Source: Actinomycetota bacterium (GTDB lineage Bacteria; Actinomycetota; Aquicultoria; UBA3085; Oleimmundimicrobiaceae). From it: a stretch of DNA of 59,296 nt. The stretch's first letter is position 1, and each line of letters begins with the position of its first letter. The notes under the pieces were generated by a model. It was given only the letters and a program-made list of their open reading frames with translations. It was not told the origin of the DNA and made no database searches. Position numbers and translations under genes: made by a program. The stretch spans positions 1 to 59,296 of the forward strand of contig JASEGU010000006.1 of assembly GCA_030017835.1 (NCBI GenBank), read 5' to 3'. Shown piece after piece: positions 91 through 10,824 of the stretch.

Positions 91-118
91 AAAAGACCCC
101 TCTTTCGAGGGGTCTTTT
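91..118 (-). terminator. Strong intrinsic terminator (usable in both directions)
   Basis: A perfect 12-bp stem (AAAAGACCCCTC paired with GAGGGGTCTTTT) closes a 4-base TTTC loop. Both flanks give U-rich tails, so it could stop transcription from either side. It sits 44 bp beyond the stop codon of the minus-strand surface protein gene and is its natural terminator. Confidence 0.85.
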
Positions 119-161: not shown

Positions 162-2291
162 TTAAAGATAGGTTATATAGACGGTTTGGTTAGCGCTGTT
201 CCAGTCGACGTTACCGCCGAAAGCCTCGGCAACGTAGCGAGCAGGAAGCATGGTGCGTCCACCGACAGTCTCAGGAGCGACGTCCATAGTGGTCACAGCT
301 CCGTTCTTGTCGAGGTTCTTGCTGCCGATGACCAACTTAACCACGGTGGAACCCTTGGTTAGAGTAACGGTCTTAGTGGCAGCGTCCCAAGCGATCCCGC
401 TCCCGCTGATGCCCATGGCGTAGGCGAGATACCTAACCGGCACAAAGGCGCGTCCATCCTTGGTGTAGGCCTTGGCATCCATGACATAGGTGACACCACC
501 CGCCGTATAGGTGTTTTGGCCTATCACGAAGGTAGCCTGGGTCACGCCGGACACCAGGTTGGCGTTGGCCACCTTCATCTGGTTGGAGTTCTGGAGCTTA
601 GCATAGACAGAGCCCAGAACCGCGCCCGCTTGAGCGTTGTACTTAATGCCGGTTATCGTGAGCGTTGACGGGCTGCCCACGCTGGCCACGATCACGGGGA
701 TCCTGAAGGTATCGTTGGCATAGTAGCCCGGGATCCTGGTCGGGGTTCCGATGACCATGTTGCCGCTAACGGTAACCGTCGGAAGGACGCTATACCACTC
801 CACGCCGCTGGGCAGACGGATATCGATGTTGCCAGCAAAAGCTCCGGCAAAGTTCTCGGTTACGGTCAGGTTGCCCACGGAAGCGCCTTGATCGCCCAGC
901 TTAATGCTAGGTTTGGAAGCTGCGGCTATGCTTCCTGGAAGCCTAAGAAGGCCAACCTTAACCGTGCCCGCCGTGGCGCCGGCCGTGCCGCCGATGGCGA
1001 TGTTTAAGTCGCCGGGCAGAGCATCGGCATTGGGGGTCATGGTGGGCATGGTTATATTGATCCGAGATCTTACCGTGCTGGCGATGGCTATGGTGATGGT
1101 GACCACCTTGCCATCGACGCTCAGGCTGGTGGCACCCAGAACCAAGTCGCCTGTCGCAACTGCTACGGTCGGAGCCGCCGTAAAGACGACATTGTCAGGA
1201 GCGGTTAAGGTGATGTAACGGCCGCTTCCGATGAGGGAGCCTGCCGCGTTCTCCTCTATCCTGATGTTGCCGACCGCTTGGGCCCCGCCGCCGATCGTCA
1301 GGTTGGGGATGGGGCTGGTGGTGCAGGTGTTCTCGGTGCCTAGGCTGATCACTTTGGCTATGGACACATCCTGGGCTTGGATGTCGGGATCACTCCCGCC
1401 GACCGTAACTTTGATCTCTCCGGGCGGAACTTGGGCTCCCACATTCAAACGGGCGGCGGTGGTGATGGTCATCCGCGAGCGGTTGGTGCTGGCCGCACCA
1501 ACCGTCCAGGTGGCCACCCTATTGGCATTGGTCAGGGTCGCCATGTTGCTCACTAGAGTCAGCGCGCCGGCGAGGCCGTTTACGGTGGTTACAGTGACCA
1601 CAGGAGCAGCGTTGAAGGAGGTTCCGCTGGGAGTGGTAACGGTAATGGTCTGGCCGTTCGAAAGGACGCCGGCCACGTTCTCTTCAATCCTGAGTTGTCC
1701 GATAGCCTGATTATTAACACCGGCCAGAACGTTGGGTAGAGGCGAAGTGATGCAAGTGCTGTTTGTGCTGGCGTTAACGGCCGTGCCTATCTTGACCGTG
1801 CCGCTTACCTGACCGCTAGAAGAGGTGATGGTAGCCAGAACATCACCTGGGGCAACGGTATTGTCGAGATCAACTGAAAACGCGCCTGTGCCACCAGGTA
1901 TGACTATCGTGCCGCCCAGACCAGTCGAGGCAGCTATCACGGTGGCAACTACCTGATCAGCGCCGGACGCAACAAGAGCCGTGGTTACGTCAGTAGCCGC
2001 GGCATATCCATTGCCCGCACCTGCAACTATCGCCACATTTTGAGGGGCCGTCGCAACGAAATCTACGCCGCTCGGCAGGGTGACGGTTACCGTTGTGCCA
2101 ACAGCAAGTTCTCCCGCATAACTCTCGGTGATGACCACATTGCCGATAGCTTGATTGGTCGCATTGATCAAGAGGTTGGGAGGAGAGCTAACGCCGCTGA
2201 CGGTGGCCGCAAAGGCCGGCATGGCCATCATGGGGACCAAACTTAAGGCCATCATGGTAGCCACAAGTAAAGCGATTGCTTTTCTTTTCAA
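162..2291 (-). CDS. Secreted repeat protein with C-terminal copper amine oxidase N-terminal domain
   Basis: Probable exported surface protein of 709 residues. It starts with a classical signal peptide (MKRKAIALLVA, then a hydrophobic core ending at AFA-A). The body holds about three similar beta-rich repeats of roughly 140 residues, recognisable by PNLLI/PNVLA/PNLTI, QAIG and IEEN/ITES signatures, plus a fourth diverged copy. The last 130 residues are a Cu_amine_oxidN1-type domain (PVRYLAYAMG, GRTMLPARYVAEAFGG), often found on surface proteins of anaerobes; it does not imply amine oxidase activity. I prefer the TTG start at 2291, which has AAGGAG eight bases upstream and gives a good signal peptide; ATG 2339 would add 16 polar residues. 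An ECF-type promoter lies upstream. The function of the repeats is unknown. Confidence 0.8.
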   Translation of the reverse strand: MKRKAIALLVATMMALSLVPMMAMPAFAATVSGVSSPPNLLINATNQAIGNVVITESYAGELAVGTTVTVTLPSGVDFVATAPQNVAIVAGAGNGYAAATDVTTALVASGADQVVATVIAASTGLGGTIVIPGGTGAFSVDLDNTVAPGDVLATITSSSGQVSGTVKIGTAVNASTNSTCITSPLPNVLAGVNNQAIGQLRIEENVAGVLSNGQTITVTTPSGTSFNAAPVVTVTTVNGLAGALTLVSNMATLTNANRVATWTVGAASTNRSRMTITTAARLNVGAQVPPGEIKVTVGGSDPDIQAQDVSIAKVISLGTENTCTTSPIPNLTIGGGAQAVGNIRIEENAAGSLIGSGRYITLTAPDNVVFTAAPTVAVATGDLVLGATSLSVDGKVVTITIAIASTVRSRINITMPTMTPNADALPGDLNIAIGGTAGATAGTVKVGLLRLPGSIAAASKPSIKLGDQGASVGNLTVTENFAGAFAGNIDIRLPSGVEWYSVLPTVTVSGNMVIGTPTRIPGYYANDTFRIPVIVASVGSPSTLTITGIKYNAQAGAVLGSVYAKLQNSNQMKVANANLVSGVTQATFVIGQNTYTAGGVTYVMDAKAYTKDGRAFVPVRYLAYAMGISGSGIAWDAATKTVTLTKGSTVVKLVIGSKNLDKNGAVTTMDVAPETVGGRTMLPARYVAEAFGGNVDWNSANQTVYITYL

Positions 2292-2449
2292 GTTTCTTTC
2301 TCCTTTTTTTGTTTGTTTTGTTTGGTTTATATTTTTCATCTTCTATTAACACCCCCTTCCCGATGCTAAATTTCTTTAAACTTCACCTTGCCCTTAAAAT
2401 GCGACAAACTAAAGCAAAAGACTCCTTATGACATTCATCCCTAATTATA

Positions 2450-2474
2450 GACGAAATATGGGCAAAATGGTTAC
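2450..2474 (-). promoter_or_regulatory. ECF-sigma-type promoter GTAAC-N16-CGTC of the surface protein gene
   Basis: On the minus strand GTAAC (2474-2470) is followed after exactly 16 bases by CGTC (2453-2450), and the CGTC runs on into TATAAT. The same arrangement with the same spacing precedes the ECF sigma gene at 4530-4554. The pattern resembles known ECF promoters with an AAC -35 element and a CGTC -10 element. That it is recognised by the neighbouring sigma factor is an inference. Confidence 0.6.
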
Positions 2475-2488
2475 GGATTTGTCCGCCT

Positions 2489-3925
2489 TTATTTTTTATC
2501 TTCTTCCCCACCAGCCAGCAGGGTAAAGGTTGATGCGGTGGTGGAGCTGACATTACCGGCCAGATCTGTGGCCAGAGCGCGGACGAAATAACGCCCGCCT
2601 TTAAGTTTTGAGCTGGCCAGGGTGAATACGTTATCTGCCAAATCCTTGAAGGTTAAAGTGCTGCCGCTCCTAAAATCTGGCGCGGTTGAAATTTGCAGGG
2701 TATAACTTGCTGCATCTCCGACCAACTGCCAGGCGAAGGTTGGGCCGCCGCCTTCAAAAACCTGACCGTCCAAGGGCGCCTGCAGCGAGAATGAGGGAGG
2801 GGCCGTATCCAGGATTACCCTGATATCGGTTGAGCTATAACGTCCCAAGCCGTCAAAGACCTTGATGGTATAGACGCCATTATCCAGGGCGCTCCCGCCG
2901 TCATCTCGGCCGTCCCAGCGGGCCCAGTAAGAGCCGCCGCTTTCGTTCTCCTTAAATCTCAAGTTCGAAGAGATGACAATGTCGCCCCTGAAGATGGCCC
3001 CGCTCAACCTCTGGCCGCTTCTGGCTTTTAAGGTGATCTTGACCTCATCTTTTACAGAGTCGCCGTTGGGGCTGAAGTTTAAGTTATCAGCGGCAAGATC
3101 GCTGATGGTCAAAGGGGCAAGGGACGCCCTCTGATAGGTGGCCGCCAAAGTTGATGATTCCAAGGCCGGCTGGCCTGGCTCACCCGCCTCTCCACCCAGA
3201 GAGGGGTTTAAAGGATCAGGTGAGGCGTCATGGGCAGGTGATTGATTTAAGCCGCCGCCCTTTAAGGCTAGCTCTGCTCCGCCGATGAGCTCGCCTGCCC
3301 TGATAAGGAGACCGGCTTTATCTTTTGATATCTCTGGCGCCGCCAAGTCTTCTGCCAGCCTAATATTCTTATCGAACTCGGCCATTAGGGCCTCTTTGGC
3401 CCCGCCAGCCGCTTCTTCTTCCCTTAAGTTTTTGAGCTCATCCAGCCGCTTTTGGGCAAACTTTACGTGAAGGCGGGCCTTGGATTCATTGCTAACGGCA
3501 AAAACCAAGCGGGCCGATTCGGCCCCTTTTTTCAAGGCGTAGAGCGGGCTGGTCGGCAAGGCACTTTCAGAAAGGGCGGCCCCTCCGCCAAGAAGGGCAA
3601 AGCATAATACGCTCGCCACCGCCACTCTGGCCGAAAGCGAAAAGGCCCTGTAATATAGGAATGAATTCTTGGCCCGCCCCCCCACCGGCGCTTGGTAAAT
3701 CGAGCTTATCAGCTTCTTTTCAAACTCGTCGGCAAAAACGGGGCTTGGTTCTTCTTCAAAGAGATGGGCCCTTAGAAGCTCATCCGCTCTGAGAAGAACC
3801 TTAAGATCACCGGCCAGAGCCCGGTGACTTGCAATAATATCATCAAACGTCTCGCCCTCATTGAGCTTTAAGAGGGCTTCTTCAAACATGCGTTTAAGTT
3901 CAAAACTGCCTACCGTCATGTCCAT
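2489..3925 (-). CDS. Membrane anti-sigma factor-like protein (DUF5667) with FlgD-like extracellular domain
   Basis: About 478 residues, translated with the ECF sigma gene: its start lies inside the last codons of that gene. Residues 1-95 are cytoplasmic and helical, the expected sigma-binding part. A single membrane segment lies near residues 99-117. It is followed by a DUF5667-like helical region (SALPTSPLYALKK onwards, to about 225), a Pro/Gly-rich linker, an FlgD-type Ig domain (NLNFSPNGDSVKDEV, YWARWDGRDDGG, about 280-370) and a fibronectin-like C-terminal domain. Start alternatives are ATG 3925 and ATG 3919; the second has GGGA at better spacing. I infer that it holds the sigma factor at the membrane and senses an envelope signal outside. 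No zinc-binding anti-sigma motif is visible. Confidence 0.7.
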   Translation of the reverse strand: MDMTVGSFELKRMFEEALLKLNEGETFDDIIASHRALAGDLKVLLRADELLRAHLFEEEPSPVFADEFEKKLISSIYQAPVGGRAKNSFLYYRAFSLSARVAVASVLCFALLGGGAALSESALPTSPLYALKKGAESARLVFAVSNESKARLHVKFAQKRLDELKNLREEEAAGGAKEALMAEFDKNIRLAEDLAAPEISKDKAGLLIRAGELIGGAELALKGGGLNQSPAHDASPDPLNPSLGGEAGEPGQPALESSTLAATYQRASLAPLTISDLAADNLNFSPNGDSVKDEVKITLKARSGQRLSGAIFRGDIVISSNLRFKENESGGSYWARWDGRDDGGSALDNGVYTIKVFDGLGRYSSTDIRVILDTAPPSFSLQAPLDGQVFEGGGPTFAWQLVGDAASYTLQISTAPDFRSGSTLTFKDLADNVFTLASSKLKGGRYFVRALATDLAGNVSSTTASTFTLLAGGEEDKK

Positions 3926-4481
3926 TCCCTAACTTTTTACCAAGTGATTCCACTGCTCTAAAAGCGAGCGCCTTTACAGCGCCCTCCGTCTTGCTTAAGA
4001 CCTCGGCCACCTCAGCGTTGGTCATGCCAGACATATATTTTAAGAGTATCACCCGCATCTGATCTTCGGACAACTCCAAGACCGCCCTTTTGACCCGCTC
4101 GTATTGGAAGGAGCTTAAGACCGCCTCTTCCACGTCGCCAGCGCTTGGCGAGTTCAAGGCCGCGTCCATTGCCTCATCGCCGCCCACAAAGAGGCCGTCA
4201 TGCTTGCCTTTGGACCGATAATAGTCGGTGACCGAATTGGCCGCTATCCGCATCATCCAGGCCACAAAGACCAGGCCATCACCACTTAAGGTTGGCAGCT
4301 TCTCAAAGGCTTTAAGAAAGACCTTGGATGTTAGGTCTTCGGCTACCTGAGCGCTGCTTACCCTGTAGTGAATGAAGCCATATACCTTTTTCAAATAGAG
4401 TCGATAAAGCTCCGAAAAGGCGGCCTCATCGCGCTCTTTGGCCCGTTTTACCAGACCCAACAATTCCTCTTCGGAGATCAC
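3900..4481 (-). CDS. ECF-type RNA polymerase sigma factor
   Basis: A 193-residue sigma factor of the extracytoplasmic function group. Region 2 covers about residues 10-90 (AFSELYRLYLKKVYGFI, DLTSKVFLKAF, WMMRIAANSVTDYYR) and region 4 about 125-180 (VLELSEDQMRVILLKYMSGMTNAEVAEVL, a helix-turn-helix). The length is normal. It starts at GTG 4481 with GGAG seven bases upstream. It overlaps the anti-sigma gene, a usual pairing. A GTAAC-N16-CGTC promoter 49 bases upstream suggests that it activates its own transcription; the same promoter precedes the secreted protein gene at 2.3 kb. Confidence 0.9.
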   Translation of the reverse strand: MISEEELLGLVKRAKERDEAAFSELYRLYLKKVYGFIHYRVSSAQVAEDLTSKVFLKAFEKLPTLSGDGLVFVAWMMRIAANSVTDYYRSKGKHDGLFVGGDEAMDAALNSPSAGDVEEAVLSSFQYERVKRAVLELSEDQMRVILLKYMSGMTNAEVAEVLSKTEGAVKALAFRAVESLGKKLGNGHDGRQF

Positions 4482-4499
4482 CCATCGACTCCGATCAAG

Positions 4500-4523
4500 A
4501 AAAGGGGGCTTTCGGCCCTTTTT
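4500..4523 (-). promoter_or_regulatory. GC hairpin with U-tail in the sigma factor leader
   Basis: The leader RNA of the sigma gene can fold GGGC-CGAAA-GCCC flanked by A-runs and U-runs, ending about 18 bases before the GTG start and just before the ribosome-binding site. It looks like a weak terminator or a translation-affecting hairpin. It may be an attenuator between the promoter at 4530-4554 and the gene, but nothing here proves that. Confidence 0.4.
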
Positions 4524-4529
4524 GGTTTA

Positions 4530-4554
4530 GACGTTTGAGAAGCCATAAAGTTAC
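4530..4554 (-). promoter_or_regulatory. Autoregulatory ECF-type promoter GTAAC-N16-CGTC
   Basis: On the minus strand GTAAC (4554-4550) and CGTC (4533-4530) are separated by exactly 16 bases, followed by TA. It matches the copy at 2450-2474 in both elements and spacing. A separate TATAAT sits upstream at 4671-4666 and may be a housekeeping -10, without a convincing -35. Confidence 0.6.
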
Positions 4555-7115: not shown

Positions 7116-8879
7116 TTAAAAGCGATCTTTGATAACCAAGTAAACAAATTTGGGAAGGGAGAGGGCGACCCGCTTAAATCTCTTTTTGGGCTGAGCCAAA
7201 AGACGGTAGAGCCACTCCAAATTCAAGCGCTGAACAACGGCGGGAGCCCTCTTGGTCCTGCCGGAGATGACATCGAAACTGCCGCCTATGCCTAAAGCCA
7301 GGGGTATTTTCAAGTCTTCTTGGTTAGTCGCTATCCACTTCTCCTGCTTGGGAATACCAAGACCTACAAAAAGTATGTCAGGTGAATCGGCTCTGAAGCC
7401 GCTCATCATATCCTGCTCCTCCTTGGCAGATAAAAACCCGTGGTAAGTGCCTATGACACTAAGGCCGGGGTATTCCTGAGACAGATTTTGGGCAGCAGCG
7501 GCGGCGACGCCATCTTCACCGCCAAAGAAGGCGACCTTATAGCCTTTCTTTGCGGCCAGAGAGCTTAGAGCGTAGACCAGATCGACGCCGGTTACTTTGG
7601 CTCTCAGGCGAGCGGCCCATTTTATACCGAAGCTGTCGGCAAGGACCATGTCGGATTGATTGATGATGGAACAGAGCTCCTTGTCATTCTGAGCGAGAAC
7701 GGCCATTTCAGTATTTAGGGTGATGACCCTGTGGGAACCACCCTCTTTGATAAGGCGCTCAAGGAGCGGAGTGGCTTCTTTGAGCCCCATGACGTCAACC
7801 TTAAGGCCAAGGAGATAAGTTTTTTTAAGAAGACCCAGGGCGAGCTCAGCGGCCGAGTGAGCCTTGGCAGAAAGTCTTTCGATCGCCCCTTCTTGAACGG
7901 GGCTGTATCTCTCTCCTCGTAAACCGGCTCTTACCTTAGCAGCCGCTTCTTGGGCAGAGAATGATTTAAGTCTTAAGGGGGGCTCGCGGCCAACAAGCTT
8001 GAGAAAGTTTTCGACCTTAGGGTCGTAGAGGATAGCCAGAAAGGGCACTTTGACCTTGGCGGCCATCACGAGGGAATGGAGGGGGATGCCGATAAGAAAA
8101 TCGAGCTTGCTGATAGCCTTGAGAGTGGCCAGGGGATCGGGTGCGTCCAAGATCTCGGCCCTACCTGTCATCCTGACCTCTATCTCCTTGGCAAAGATGA
8201 GGTCTTCGGGATATTTCATGGGAATGAGGATGATATCCGCCTTCTCTTCGCTTATCAGCCGATCGGCTAATTCGGCAAGTCTTTGAAGATCGCCGCCCGG
8301 CCAGTCGCGGGGGGCGATGCCGATGTAAGGACTTTTGCCCTCGCCTTTTTCGGGGGGCTCAAAGGGGATGTCAAGACCAAGAACAGGATCGGCCAAGACG
8401 ATGATCTCCTTTTTGACCCCAATCTCTTCAAGCAGCTCCTTGGATTGAACGTCCCTGATGGTGATAAGATCGGCCACAGAGAAGGCGCCGCGGGTAAAGC
8501 GGCGCGCAGAGACCCTATTTAGGGGCCCCACCCCTTGAGAATAGATAGCAACCTTTAAGCCAAGCATTTTAGCCAAAGCTATCAGGCCACCATAGTAGAG
8601 CACACTATTTAATCTGAAGATATCCTGAAACAGACCGCCACCACCGCTAATAAGAAGATCGGAGACCTTCAGTATCTTAACGATCGCAAAAAGATCGCTC
8701 CGGCTCACCGCTTGAACGCTAAAGGTGTGAGCCGTCTTAACGGGCTCAGATGATAGGACGGTTATCTCAGCGTCTGCCATTTCTTCTTTTATGGCCATGA
8801 TGAGAGAAAGAAGTATCGCCTCGTCGCCTACACTATCAAATCCGTAGTAGCCGGAGATGACGACCCTCTTATGAGGCAT
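7116..8879 (-). CDS. csaB-tagA: Fused polysaccharide pyruvyl transferase (CsaB) and TagA/WecG glycosyltransferase
   Basis: A single 587-residue frame joins two enzymes usually encoded separately. Residues 1 to about 300 are CsaB-like (VVISGYYGFDSVGDEAIL, LISGGGGLFQD, YSQGVGPL, GIPLHSLVMA), which puts a pyruvate ketal on wall polysaccharide. Residues about 335-570 are a WecG/TagA/CpsF transferase (ITLNTEMAVLAQ, LADSFGIKWAAR, FVGLGIPKQEKW, GIGGSFDVISG), which transfers N-acetylmannosamine-type sugars to lipid-linked acceptors. Start ATG 8879 overlaps the end of the DUF5693 gene by 11 bases. Pyruvylated wall polymer is the ligand of SLH domains, which occur in the subtilase downstream and the amidase upstream. 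Both catalytic cores look complete. Confidence 0.85.
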   Translation of the reverse strand: MPHKRVVISGYYGFDSVGDEAILLSLIMAIKEEMADAEITVLSSEPVKTAHTFSVQAVSRSDLFAIVKILKVSDLLISGGGGLFQDIFRLNSVLYYGGLIALAKMLGLKVAIYSQGVGPLNRVSARRFTRGAFSVADLITIRDVQSKELLEEIGVKKEIIVLADPVLGLDIPFEPPEKGEGKSPYIGIAPRDWPGGDLQRLAELADRLISEEKADIILIPMKYPEDLIFAKEIEVRMTGRAEILDAPDPLATLKAISKLDFLIGIPLHSLVMAAKVKVPFLAILYDPKVENFLKLVGREPPLRLKSFSAQEAAAKVRAGLRGERYSPVQEGAIERLSAKAHSAAELALGLLKKTYLLGLKVDVMGLKEATPLLERLIKEGGSHRVITLNTEMAVLAQNDKELCSIINQSDMVLADSFGIKWAARLRAKVTGVDLVYALSSLAAKKGYKVAFFGGEDGVAAAAAQNLSQEYPGLSVIGTYHGFLSAKEEQDMMSGFRADSPDILFVGLGIPKQEKWIATNQEDLKIPLALGIGGSFDVISGRTKRAPAVVQRLNLEWLYRLLAQPKKRFKRVALSLPKFVYLVIKDRF

Positions 8880-10824
8880 TTTTGATGAATTTGGCCGTTG
8901 CTTCATATATAAAAGCAGCAACAAGACCGATCAGGAGACCCAGGACCAGACCATTGAAACTCCTAAAAAGAGAGACCCAGAGGGGCGAGTAGGTATGGCA
9001 GAAGGTATTAGCGAGCGATATCTGGCCAATCGTTGCCAAAATAGCCAAAGCCCATGTCGTTTTGCGGTCAAAAAGACCAGATGCGGCAAGGATGAGGGCG
9101 GGATGGCCAATGAGAAACTCCTTAAAGCGTGGCCTGACCAACAAGATGCTATCTAAAAGCTTTCTCAATAACAGCTCTGAAGCAGGCACGAATTCGGCCG
9201 AAGCGTTGCCCGAGCGGATTAAATAAAAAGCGGCGGCGGCCGTCATAAACCCGCCCAAGATGACGTATTTTACTAGGATGGGTTCATTGAAAAACTCTTT
9301 AAGACCGCCTTTTATCGGCTGCCACCTCTGGCTGAGGATATGGATAACCGCCAGTATAGGCGCCAGATAGGCTATCTTAACGCCGGTGAAGGTGTCCACA
9401 CCTAGCAAGAAGCTCTCCCTTAAAAGAAGAGAGGAGACGATTAGACCACCAGTTAGGGTTATGAGTGAAACCTTGATGAGAAGAATAGCGGAAGAGAGAT
9501 ACCTCAAAGGGGAAGACTTCTCTTTTATTATCTCTTTTTCCATTGAAACCAAGCTAAGGGCAGGAAAGAGACAGGCGGCAAGCAAGGCGAGGCCTTTAAA
9601 GAGCATAACCTCCCTGCCCGTTGCTAAGAAGGCGACAGCTACGATGGCTGAAAAAAGAGCCAAGATAGCGAGGCGGCTAACCTTCAAGTGATGAAGGAGG
9701 AGAAGGGCAAAGCCGGCCAAGACAGCAAGTGAGATAAGGGCTGTCAAGAGGGTGGTGAAAGGGCTCTCCTCAACCTTGGGAACGCTGAAGTCTCCTAGGC
9801 GGTAACCGGCCGATACCAGGCTCTCTCTAACATTTTGAAGGTAGGCGATGTTACGCTCGGCCAACGAGGGGCCGGTCGCTCCCTTCAAAAAGAAACGCAG
9901 GTAAACTAGGCGTATACTTCTATCCCGCACGGCCGCCCGGATGGTGGCCACCACTTCGGCCGGGGTTGATTTTTCAGTTCGCCACTCGGCAACCTCGTGT
10001 ATTTTTACTCCTTCTTGGCCAGCCGATTCGACAAGAGACCCTTTGCCTTCTATGGCAACCATCTCAAGAAAACCGAGCCCCACGCCCTCCCTTTTTAGGG
10101 CTTCGGTAAGATCGGCTATGGAGACTTCCTGATTGGCACCGGGGGGAGCATAGGCGGCCACCTCTTTACCAAGGGAGATCGCTATATCGGCCCCGATAAG
10201 ATGAATGTTGTTAACGATAGTCTGAATGCCTTCCTTTTTTATGCGCCCGTCATTTCTTAGCACGGCAACCGTTTTTAAGCCTCTCTCGTGGATCATGGCA
10301 ACCATTTCAGGGTCGTAACCCATTGAGAGCATCTCTATCTCTTGATCGACGGTGGCTATCTCTATTAGACGATCGCCCACCATTTTGGCCACCTCTTGGC
10401 CGTAGCGCGAGCTTAAGTTGGAAAAAGCCCGCCGGCAAGCGCTAAGATCGGTAAAGAGTATATATTGATAGCCGGGTCTAATCCGGCTCAGCGAAAAACC
10501 CTTCTGGCCAAGGGGGGCGGATGTTGCATAGAGGCTTCTAATCTCAGCGCCACAGAGATATGCGGCCTTGCCTTTTATGGTGAGATCCATAATTGTGTCT
10601 TCGTAGATGGCAATATCGGTAATCTTGGCCTTTTTTGCCTCATCCAAGAGGTTGGGGATACTCCGACCGGAGAGCCGGGAGAGTTCCGTTAAATCCCTGA
10701 AGTCAAGGGCAAGCTCAACCACATTATTCTTGGCATCGATGACCATCCGGTTATAGCCGAGGATGAGAGAGGCTATAACACCTACAATGACCATGACCCT
10801 AAGCATTTTTTTGATATCGATCAT
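8869..10824 (-). CDS. DUF5693 family polytopic membrane protein
   Basis: A 651-residue membrane protein with one N-terminal membrane segment (about residues 8-24), a large exterior domain (to about 350) and about eight clustered membrane segments in the C-terminal half. The early motif FRDLTELSRLSGRSIPNLLDEAKKA and the overall plan fit DUF5693, a family I associate with csaB loci in Gram-positive anaerobes. Its role is unknown; the position suggests export or assembly of the secondary wall polymer. The start ATG 10824 has GGAAGGGG upstream. Its end overlaps the start of csaB-tagA, so the two are translated together. Confidence 0.7.
   Translation of the reverse strand: MIDIKKMLRVMVIVGVIASLILGYNRMVIDAKNNVVELALDFRDLTELSRLSGRSIPNLLDEAKKAKITDIAIYEDTIMDLTIKGKAAYLCGAEIRSLYATSAPLGQKGFSLSRIRPGYQYILFTDLSACRRAFSNLSSRYGQEVAKMVGDRLIEIATVDQEIEMLSMGYDPEMVAMIHERGLKTVAVLRNDGRIKKEGIQTIVNNIHLIGADIAISLGKEVAAYAPPGANQEVSIADLTEALKREGVGLGFLEMVAIEGKGSLVESAGQEGVKIHEVAEWRTEKSTPAEVVATIRAAVRDRSIRLVYLRFFLKGATGPSLAERNIAYLQNVRESLVSAGYRLGDFSVPKVEESPFTTLLTALISLAVLAGFALLLLHHLKVSRLAILALFSAIVAVAFLATGREVMLFKGLALLAACLFPALSLVSMEKEIIKEKSSPLRYLSSAILLIKVSLITLTGGLIVSSLLLRESFLLGVDTFTGVKIAYLAPILAVIHILSQRWQPIKGGLKEFFNEPILVKYVILGGFMTAAAAFYLIRSGNASAEFVPASELLLRKLLDSILLVRPRFKEFLIGHPALILAASGLFDRKTTWALAILATIGQISLANTFCHTYSPLWVSLFRSFNGLVLGLLIGLVAAFIYEATAKFIKNAS

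Follow-up and report, generated by a model that had tools for sequence, protein, structure and literature searches.

The window, by which we mean the whole 59 kb stretch of DNA that was analyzed, carries genes for a sigma factor, an anti-sigma factor, and a surface protein on its minus strand. The sigma factor is a BldN-like ECF protein of 193 aa (positions 3900..4481) that contains regions 2 and 4 only (Pfam Sigma70_r2, residues 25–92, 9.5e-13; Sigma70_r4_2, residues 128–180, 9.6e-13), as expected of ECF group IV sigma factors. Also in keeping with group IV is the adjacent anti-sigma gene (2489..3925, minus strand), which shares 26 nt with the sigma gene and encodes a membrane protein of 478 aa with a transmembrane segment and a DUF5667 domain, in an order that is kept in relatives. 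The hydropathy of this protein suggests a cytoplasmic N terminus, one transmembrane helix (approximately residues 94–119), and an ectodomain of about 360 aa composed of DUF5667 (Pfam, 5.4e-12) followed by FlgD/Big Ig-like domains (FlgD_ig, 1.2e-5; Big_13, 2.6e-4). DUF5667 and FlgD_ig are present in nine of nine aligned anti-sigma orthologs, and a sample of 297 genomes from across the phylum yielded the full-length architecture in this class only, with partial matches elsewhere. No carbohydrate-binding domain was detected in the outside region of the anti-sigma factor, and no paper in the open-access literature was found to link DUF5667 to sigma factors.

The third gene, separated from the anti-sigma gene by 149 nt, encodes a secreted, S-layer-like surface protein of 725 aa (162..2339, minus strand), which is composed of a signal peptide (hydrophobic residues 21–40), imperfect tandem repeats, and a C-terminal Cu_amine_oxidN1 domain (Pfam, 1.7e-39) that we assume is likely the wall anchor. 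A terminator-like hairpin past this gene (91..118, minus strand; GACCCCTC-GAAA-GAGGGGTC then TTTTCTTTC) was read directly from the sequence; the terminator scan lists it in the plus-strand reading only. The surface-protein mRNA leader (window 2340-2444, minus strand, 105 nt) folds better than shuffled sequences (z = -3.0) and may stabilize the message, as leaders of other abundant surface-protein mRNAs do. The idea of an attenuator in the sigma mRNA leader was rejected, as folding there is no better than that of shuffles. Upstream on the same strand are genes for an SLH-bearing subtilase and a CsaB-WecG fusion, and their presence is consistent with an S-layer cell wall. The fusion (window 7116-8924, minus strand) is a single 602-aa protein in which a CsaB-type pyruvyl transferase is joined to a WecG/TagA glycosyltransferase.

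A preliminary description of this DNA had noted that both the sigma gene and the surface-protein gene are preceded on the minus strand by GTAAC, exactly 16 bases, CGTC, and TA, and a direct reading of the sequence bears this out. The predicted promoter of the sigma/anti-sigma operon (4530..4554, minus strand; GTAACTTTATGGCTTCTCAAACGTC, then TAAACC) has its −35 element GTAAC at 4554-4550 and, after a 16-nt spacer, its −10 element CGTC at 4533-4530; it ends 48 nt 5′ of the sigma GTG start (4481) and reads GAGTAAC, not CCGTAAC, at −35. The predicted promoter of the surface-protein gene (2450..2474, minus strand; GTAACCATTTTGCCCATATTTCGTC, then TATAAT) begins 14 nt past the anti-sigma stop, with (CC)GTAAC at 2474-2470, the same 16-nt spacer, and CGTC at 2453-2450, and ends 110 nt 5′ of the ATG (2339). 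The two are the only exact GTAAC-N16-CGTC matches in the window, where the mean over 100 dinucleotide shuffles is 0.13 and no shuffle reaches two, and first-order Markov simulation of each intergenic region gives P = 2e-4 and 5e-5. The subtilase, a candidate additional target, has no site upstream.

Extending the scan to the genome (1.31 Mb, estimated 100% complete) gave an outcome that depends on how much of the −10 element is specified. The short form GTAAC-N15-17-CGTC occurs 11 times, compared with 15 for the reversed control, which is background. The preliminary description had named background frequency as grounds for abandoning the idea, and for the short motif that is literally what was found; we judge it to be the wrong test, however, because a regulon of two promoters would not be expected to raise the count across the genome. 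What such a regulon does predict is that the only intergenic, correctly placed copies will be those in the window. With a six-base −10 element, GTAWC-N15-18-CGTMTA matches exactly twice (control 5), at the two window sites, and no other intergenic site of the strict motif was found in the genome. Allowing one mismatch in GTAAC-N16-CGTCTA yields five matches (control 23), and the three beyond the window sites are all within coding genes. A strict pattern would overlook targets with diverged promoters, and a matrix was also built from 20 sites of relatives, none from the window, and scanned over ~135 kb of own-genome sequence, the remainder of the genome being covered by the pattern scans. This matrix ranks the sigma-gene site first and the surface-gene site second. 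A matrix from family f4 only, scanned over the same ~135 kb, places the surface-gene site first and the sigma-gene site third, whereas one from six sites of f1 relatives places the sigma-gene site first and the surface-gene site outside the top eight, a miss that is expected if the −10 element differs between lineages. Two larger secreted proteins of the genome (L179:155-3028 on contig C33 and L180:4240-7101 on contig C21) share the C-terminal Cu_amine_oxidN1 domain (PF07833), and the former also has the repeats of the window surface protein (8e-78); the motif was not found upstream of these other PF07833 surface genes.

Comparison with 36 genomes of the class places the window sigma, which sits on a long branch, in a clade that we call B-type (placement support 82/92), whose members come from families f1, f4, and f6 and mostly have long Ig-bearing anti-sigma factors. 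Autoregulation through an AAC/CGT promoter is an ECF hallmark (PMC8103513) that the preliminary description had invoked, and at the sequence level this clade agrees with it: GTAWC-N16-CGT(C/A) lies 19–72 nt 5′ of the start in 12 of 15 B-type sigma genes, and in the alignment of the window promoter with those of 11 relatives the spacer is exactly 16 in all. The −35 element is GTATC in 10 of these 12 sigma promoters, compared with GTAAC in the surface-gene promoters of the window and of f4; one reading is that GTATC makes for a weaker autoregulatory promoter. The three sigma genes lacking the motif all belong to genus g17 (L089, L090, L091), in which anti-sigma factors are shorter, no recognized surface gene adjoins, and conserved DNA-contact positions of regions 2.4 and 4.2 are changed (DYxR to EYLES and similar). 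These are apparently decaying switches. In G002, the B-type anti-sigma gene (L046, G002:C5:31181-32693) is in two overlapping frames, reflecting a frameshift or an assembly error.

The second promoter is conserved as well. With G007 (contig end) and G035 (gap) left out of the count, a second copy of the motif is present in 10 of 10 testable genomes, the window included, and in nine it precedes a gene for a secreted, usually wall-anchored protein; in G033, the site follows the anti-sigma gene and the contig then ends, leaving the gene off the contig. In family f4, the gene after the anti-sigma gene encodes a surface protein with three SLH domains and is preceded by CCGTAAC-N16-CGTCT (G022, G032, and G029) or by the same elements with N17 (G013). 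The N-terminal repeats of the window protein are homologous to these f4 proteins, which occupy the same position (30% over ~600 aa, 7e-38 versus that of G032). The sigma promoter of the f1 relatives reads CGTATA at −10, and a scan of G002, G003, and G004 with GTAWC-N16-17-CGTATA returns intergenic matches at the sigma promoter and before a CWB2 cell-wall protein gene. The CWB2 gene of G004 is cut by a contig end and is orthologous to the G002 copy by its N terminus. A third intergenic site in G003 precedes a gene for a 194-aa protein whose first 50 residues show no evident signal peptide. Matches in G009 (f6) are at the sigma promoter and before a secreted-protein gene cut by a contig end, such that G002, G004, and G009 each have exactly two intergenic sites. 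G001, from the same family as the f1 relatives but without a B-type sigma, has matches within genes only and no intergenic match. The anchor domain varies under a conserved promoter, from Cu_amine_oxidN1 in the window to SLH in f4 and CWB2 in G002, G003, and G004. The protein itself varies too, and what stays constant is the class of target, a secreted wall protein. Upstream of the adjoining CWB2 subtilase gene of G003 (L048:8398-8580) is GCAAC-N16-CGTTAT, degenerate in G002 and G004, which could be a further target or an A-type promoter.

The A-type switches are paralogs with short anti-sigma factors. They share with the window system a BldN-like sigma factor, a DUF5667 anti-sigma factor, and a GTNNC-N16-CGT autoregulatory promoter, but the A-type anti-sigma factors that were scanned have no Ig domains. 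The −10 element also differs. In all 18 A-type cases with a motif it is GTNNC-N16/17-CGTT, whereas B-type promoters have CGTC (8) or CGTA (4) and never CGTT (0 of 12), a contrast with a Fisher value of 1e-8 whose true significance is lower because the sequences are related. ECF region 2.3 loops read −10 bases, and the Trp of this loop (FxWxG) is found in most A-type sigma factors and in BldN but is missing in the B-type. Given CGTT in 18 of 18 cases versus 0 of 12, the fourth −10 base, together with the region 2.3 loop, may insulate the two switches from each other. No A-type paralog was found in the own genome.

The closest known counterpart of the window sigma factor is σBldN of Streptomyces. 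The best PDB match is 6dxo_A (2.9e-24), which we take to be BldN of the RsbN–BldN complex, and the best NCBIfam model is TIGR02952 (BldN family, 1.5e-41). The published BldN motif, CGTAAC-N16-CGTTGA (PMC2375139), shares with the window sites the −35 element, the 16-nt spacer, and CGT of the −10 element; in both systems a membrane anti-sigma factor is encoded adjacently, and the main targets of BldN include surface sheath proteins, the chaplins and rodlins (PMC4125116). Assignment as a BldN equivalog was nevertheless rejected: the TIGR02952 score of 142.2 bits is below the cutoff of 206.45, the fourth −10 base is C (C/A in the clade) rather than T, and the partner has DUF5667 and Ig domains. 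A profile of nine anti-sigma factors searched against PDB chains did not find RsbN, although RsbN proteins diverge fast (PMC4255298). The target here is an S-layer-like wall protein and the regulon apparently comprises two promoters; that of BldN extends to bldM. Judged by sequence, then, the window circuit is not BldN, although its workings appear to resemble the way in which BldN governs sheath proteins of the surface. SigI/RsgI of Clostridium thermocellum and cellulolytic clostridia is similar in having an autoregulated sigma factor and an operon-encoded anti-sigma factor with a large outside sensor that together govern secreted surface machinery. SigI, however, is a different type of sigma factor with A-tract rather than AAC/CGT promoters, the outside domains here are Ig-like, and no RsgI N-terminal domain was found in the anti-sigma factor by Pfam; membership in this system was rejected. 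A search of genome contigs for loci related to the window sigma returned two distant Acidobacteria matches only, and searches of the open-access literature yielded no description of an ECF sigma factor that is reserved for an S-layer-type protein.

We consider it highly probable that the locus is a self-contained ECF circuit in which the BldN-like sigma factor, held in check by its DUF5667 anti-sigma factor, serves the promoters of its own operon and of the adjacent surface-protein gene. The private circuit proposed in the preliminary description (sigma, anti-sigma with a large outside domain, and one surface protein) fits all of the sequence evidence, from the two intergenic sites in the genome to their conservation in three families and their ranks of 1 and 2 under the relatives-only matrix. 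At this level there is good support for the existence of the two sites, for their being unique, and for their having been conserved together with the sigma factor in the three families. The anti-sigma factor would hold the sigma factor at the membrane until an outside event, presumably concerning the state of the cell surface, led to its cleavage by regulated proteolysis, as in other membrane anti-sigma factors; such cleavage has been reported for RsgI (PMC12203970). The released sigma factor would recognize CCGTAAC-N16-CGTCTA or a close variant and would drive both its own operon, with positive autoregulation as the consequence, and one further gene, that of the neighboring S-layer-like secreted protein with its tandem repeats.

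The more serious alternative is that the regulon is larger than two, with other promoters diverging from GTAWC-N15-18-CGTMTA such that "private" is an artifact of the strict pattern. The third intergenic site in G003 and weaker matrix matches in the own-genome stretches scanned point in this direction, but the one-mismatch matches elsewhere in the genome are all coding, neither C21 nor C33 has the motif before its PF07833 surface gene, and the two-site count recurs in G002, G004, and G009; we regard a larger regulon as rather unlikely. Less likely still is that the surface gene depends mainly on the housekeeping sigma factor, or on transcripts running through from the sigma operon, with the ECF site minor. 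A perfect TATAAT at 2449-2444, directly after CGTC, makes σ70 transcription possible, and the shared strand and the short 149-nt gap would allow read-through. No σ70 promoter of at least 9/12 was found at the surface gene, however, and CCGTAAC and CGTCT are conserved in relatives, whereas TATAAT is not. Nor can read-through account for the motif before the target gene of G002 and G003, as that gene does not adjoin the operon.

It is also conceivable that another ECF sigma factor reads these promoters. By neighborhood, two of the six sigma70_r2 genes in the genome are ECF, the window sigma and a gene on contig C13 that neighbors one for a zf-HC2-like protein, its putative anti-sigma factor, which makes the C13 sigma the sole other candidate. 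Its involvement is very improbable, as the intergenic sites are absent from G001, which has no B-type sigma, and decay of the B-type sigma is accompanied by loss of the motif. That the two matches arose by chance, as the background frequency of the short motif might suggest, is hardly credible given a joint probability of ~1e-8 for the two regions and conservation of the motif in 11 other genomes.

A further reading of the self-contained circuit, which we offer tentatively and consider possible rather than probable, is that it acts as a homeostat of the cell coat. The Ig ectodomain would sense the coat, for example through vacant sites or coat protein not yet assembled, and in response the sigma factor would make more coat protein and more of itself. 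Over evolution the promoter would have been kept while coat proteins of the copper-amine-oxidase-N, SLH, and CWB2 types replaced one another behind it, and cross-talk with the sister sigma factor in same-class relatives would be barred by the fourth −10 base, as read by the region 2.3 loop. Little is understood of how bacteria adjust the output of a major surface protein to demand, and this locus represents a minimal case, with one sigma factor, one anti-sigma factor, and two promoters. The contrast between A- and B-type paralogs predicts which base and which sigma residues separate closely related switches, a prediction that may be useful for understanding ECF specificity and for synthetic circuits.
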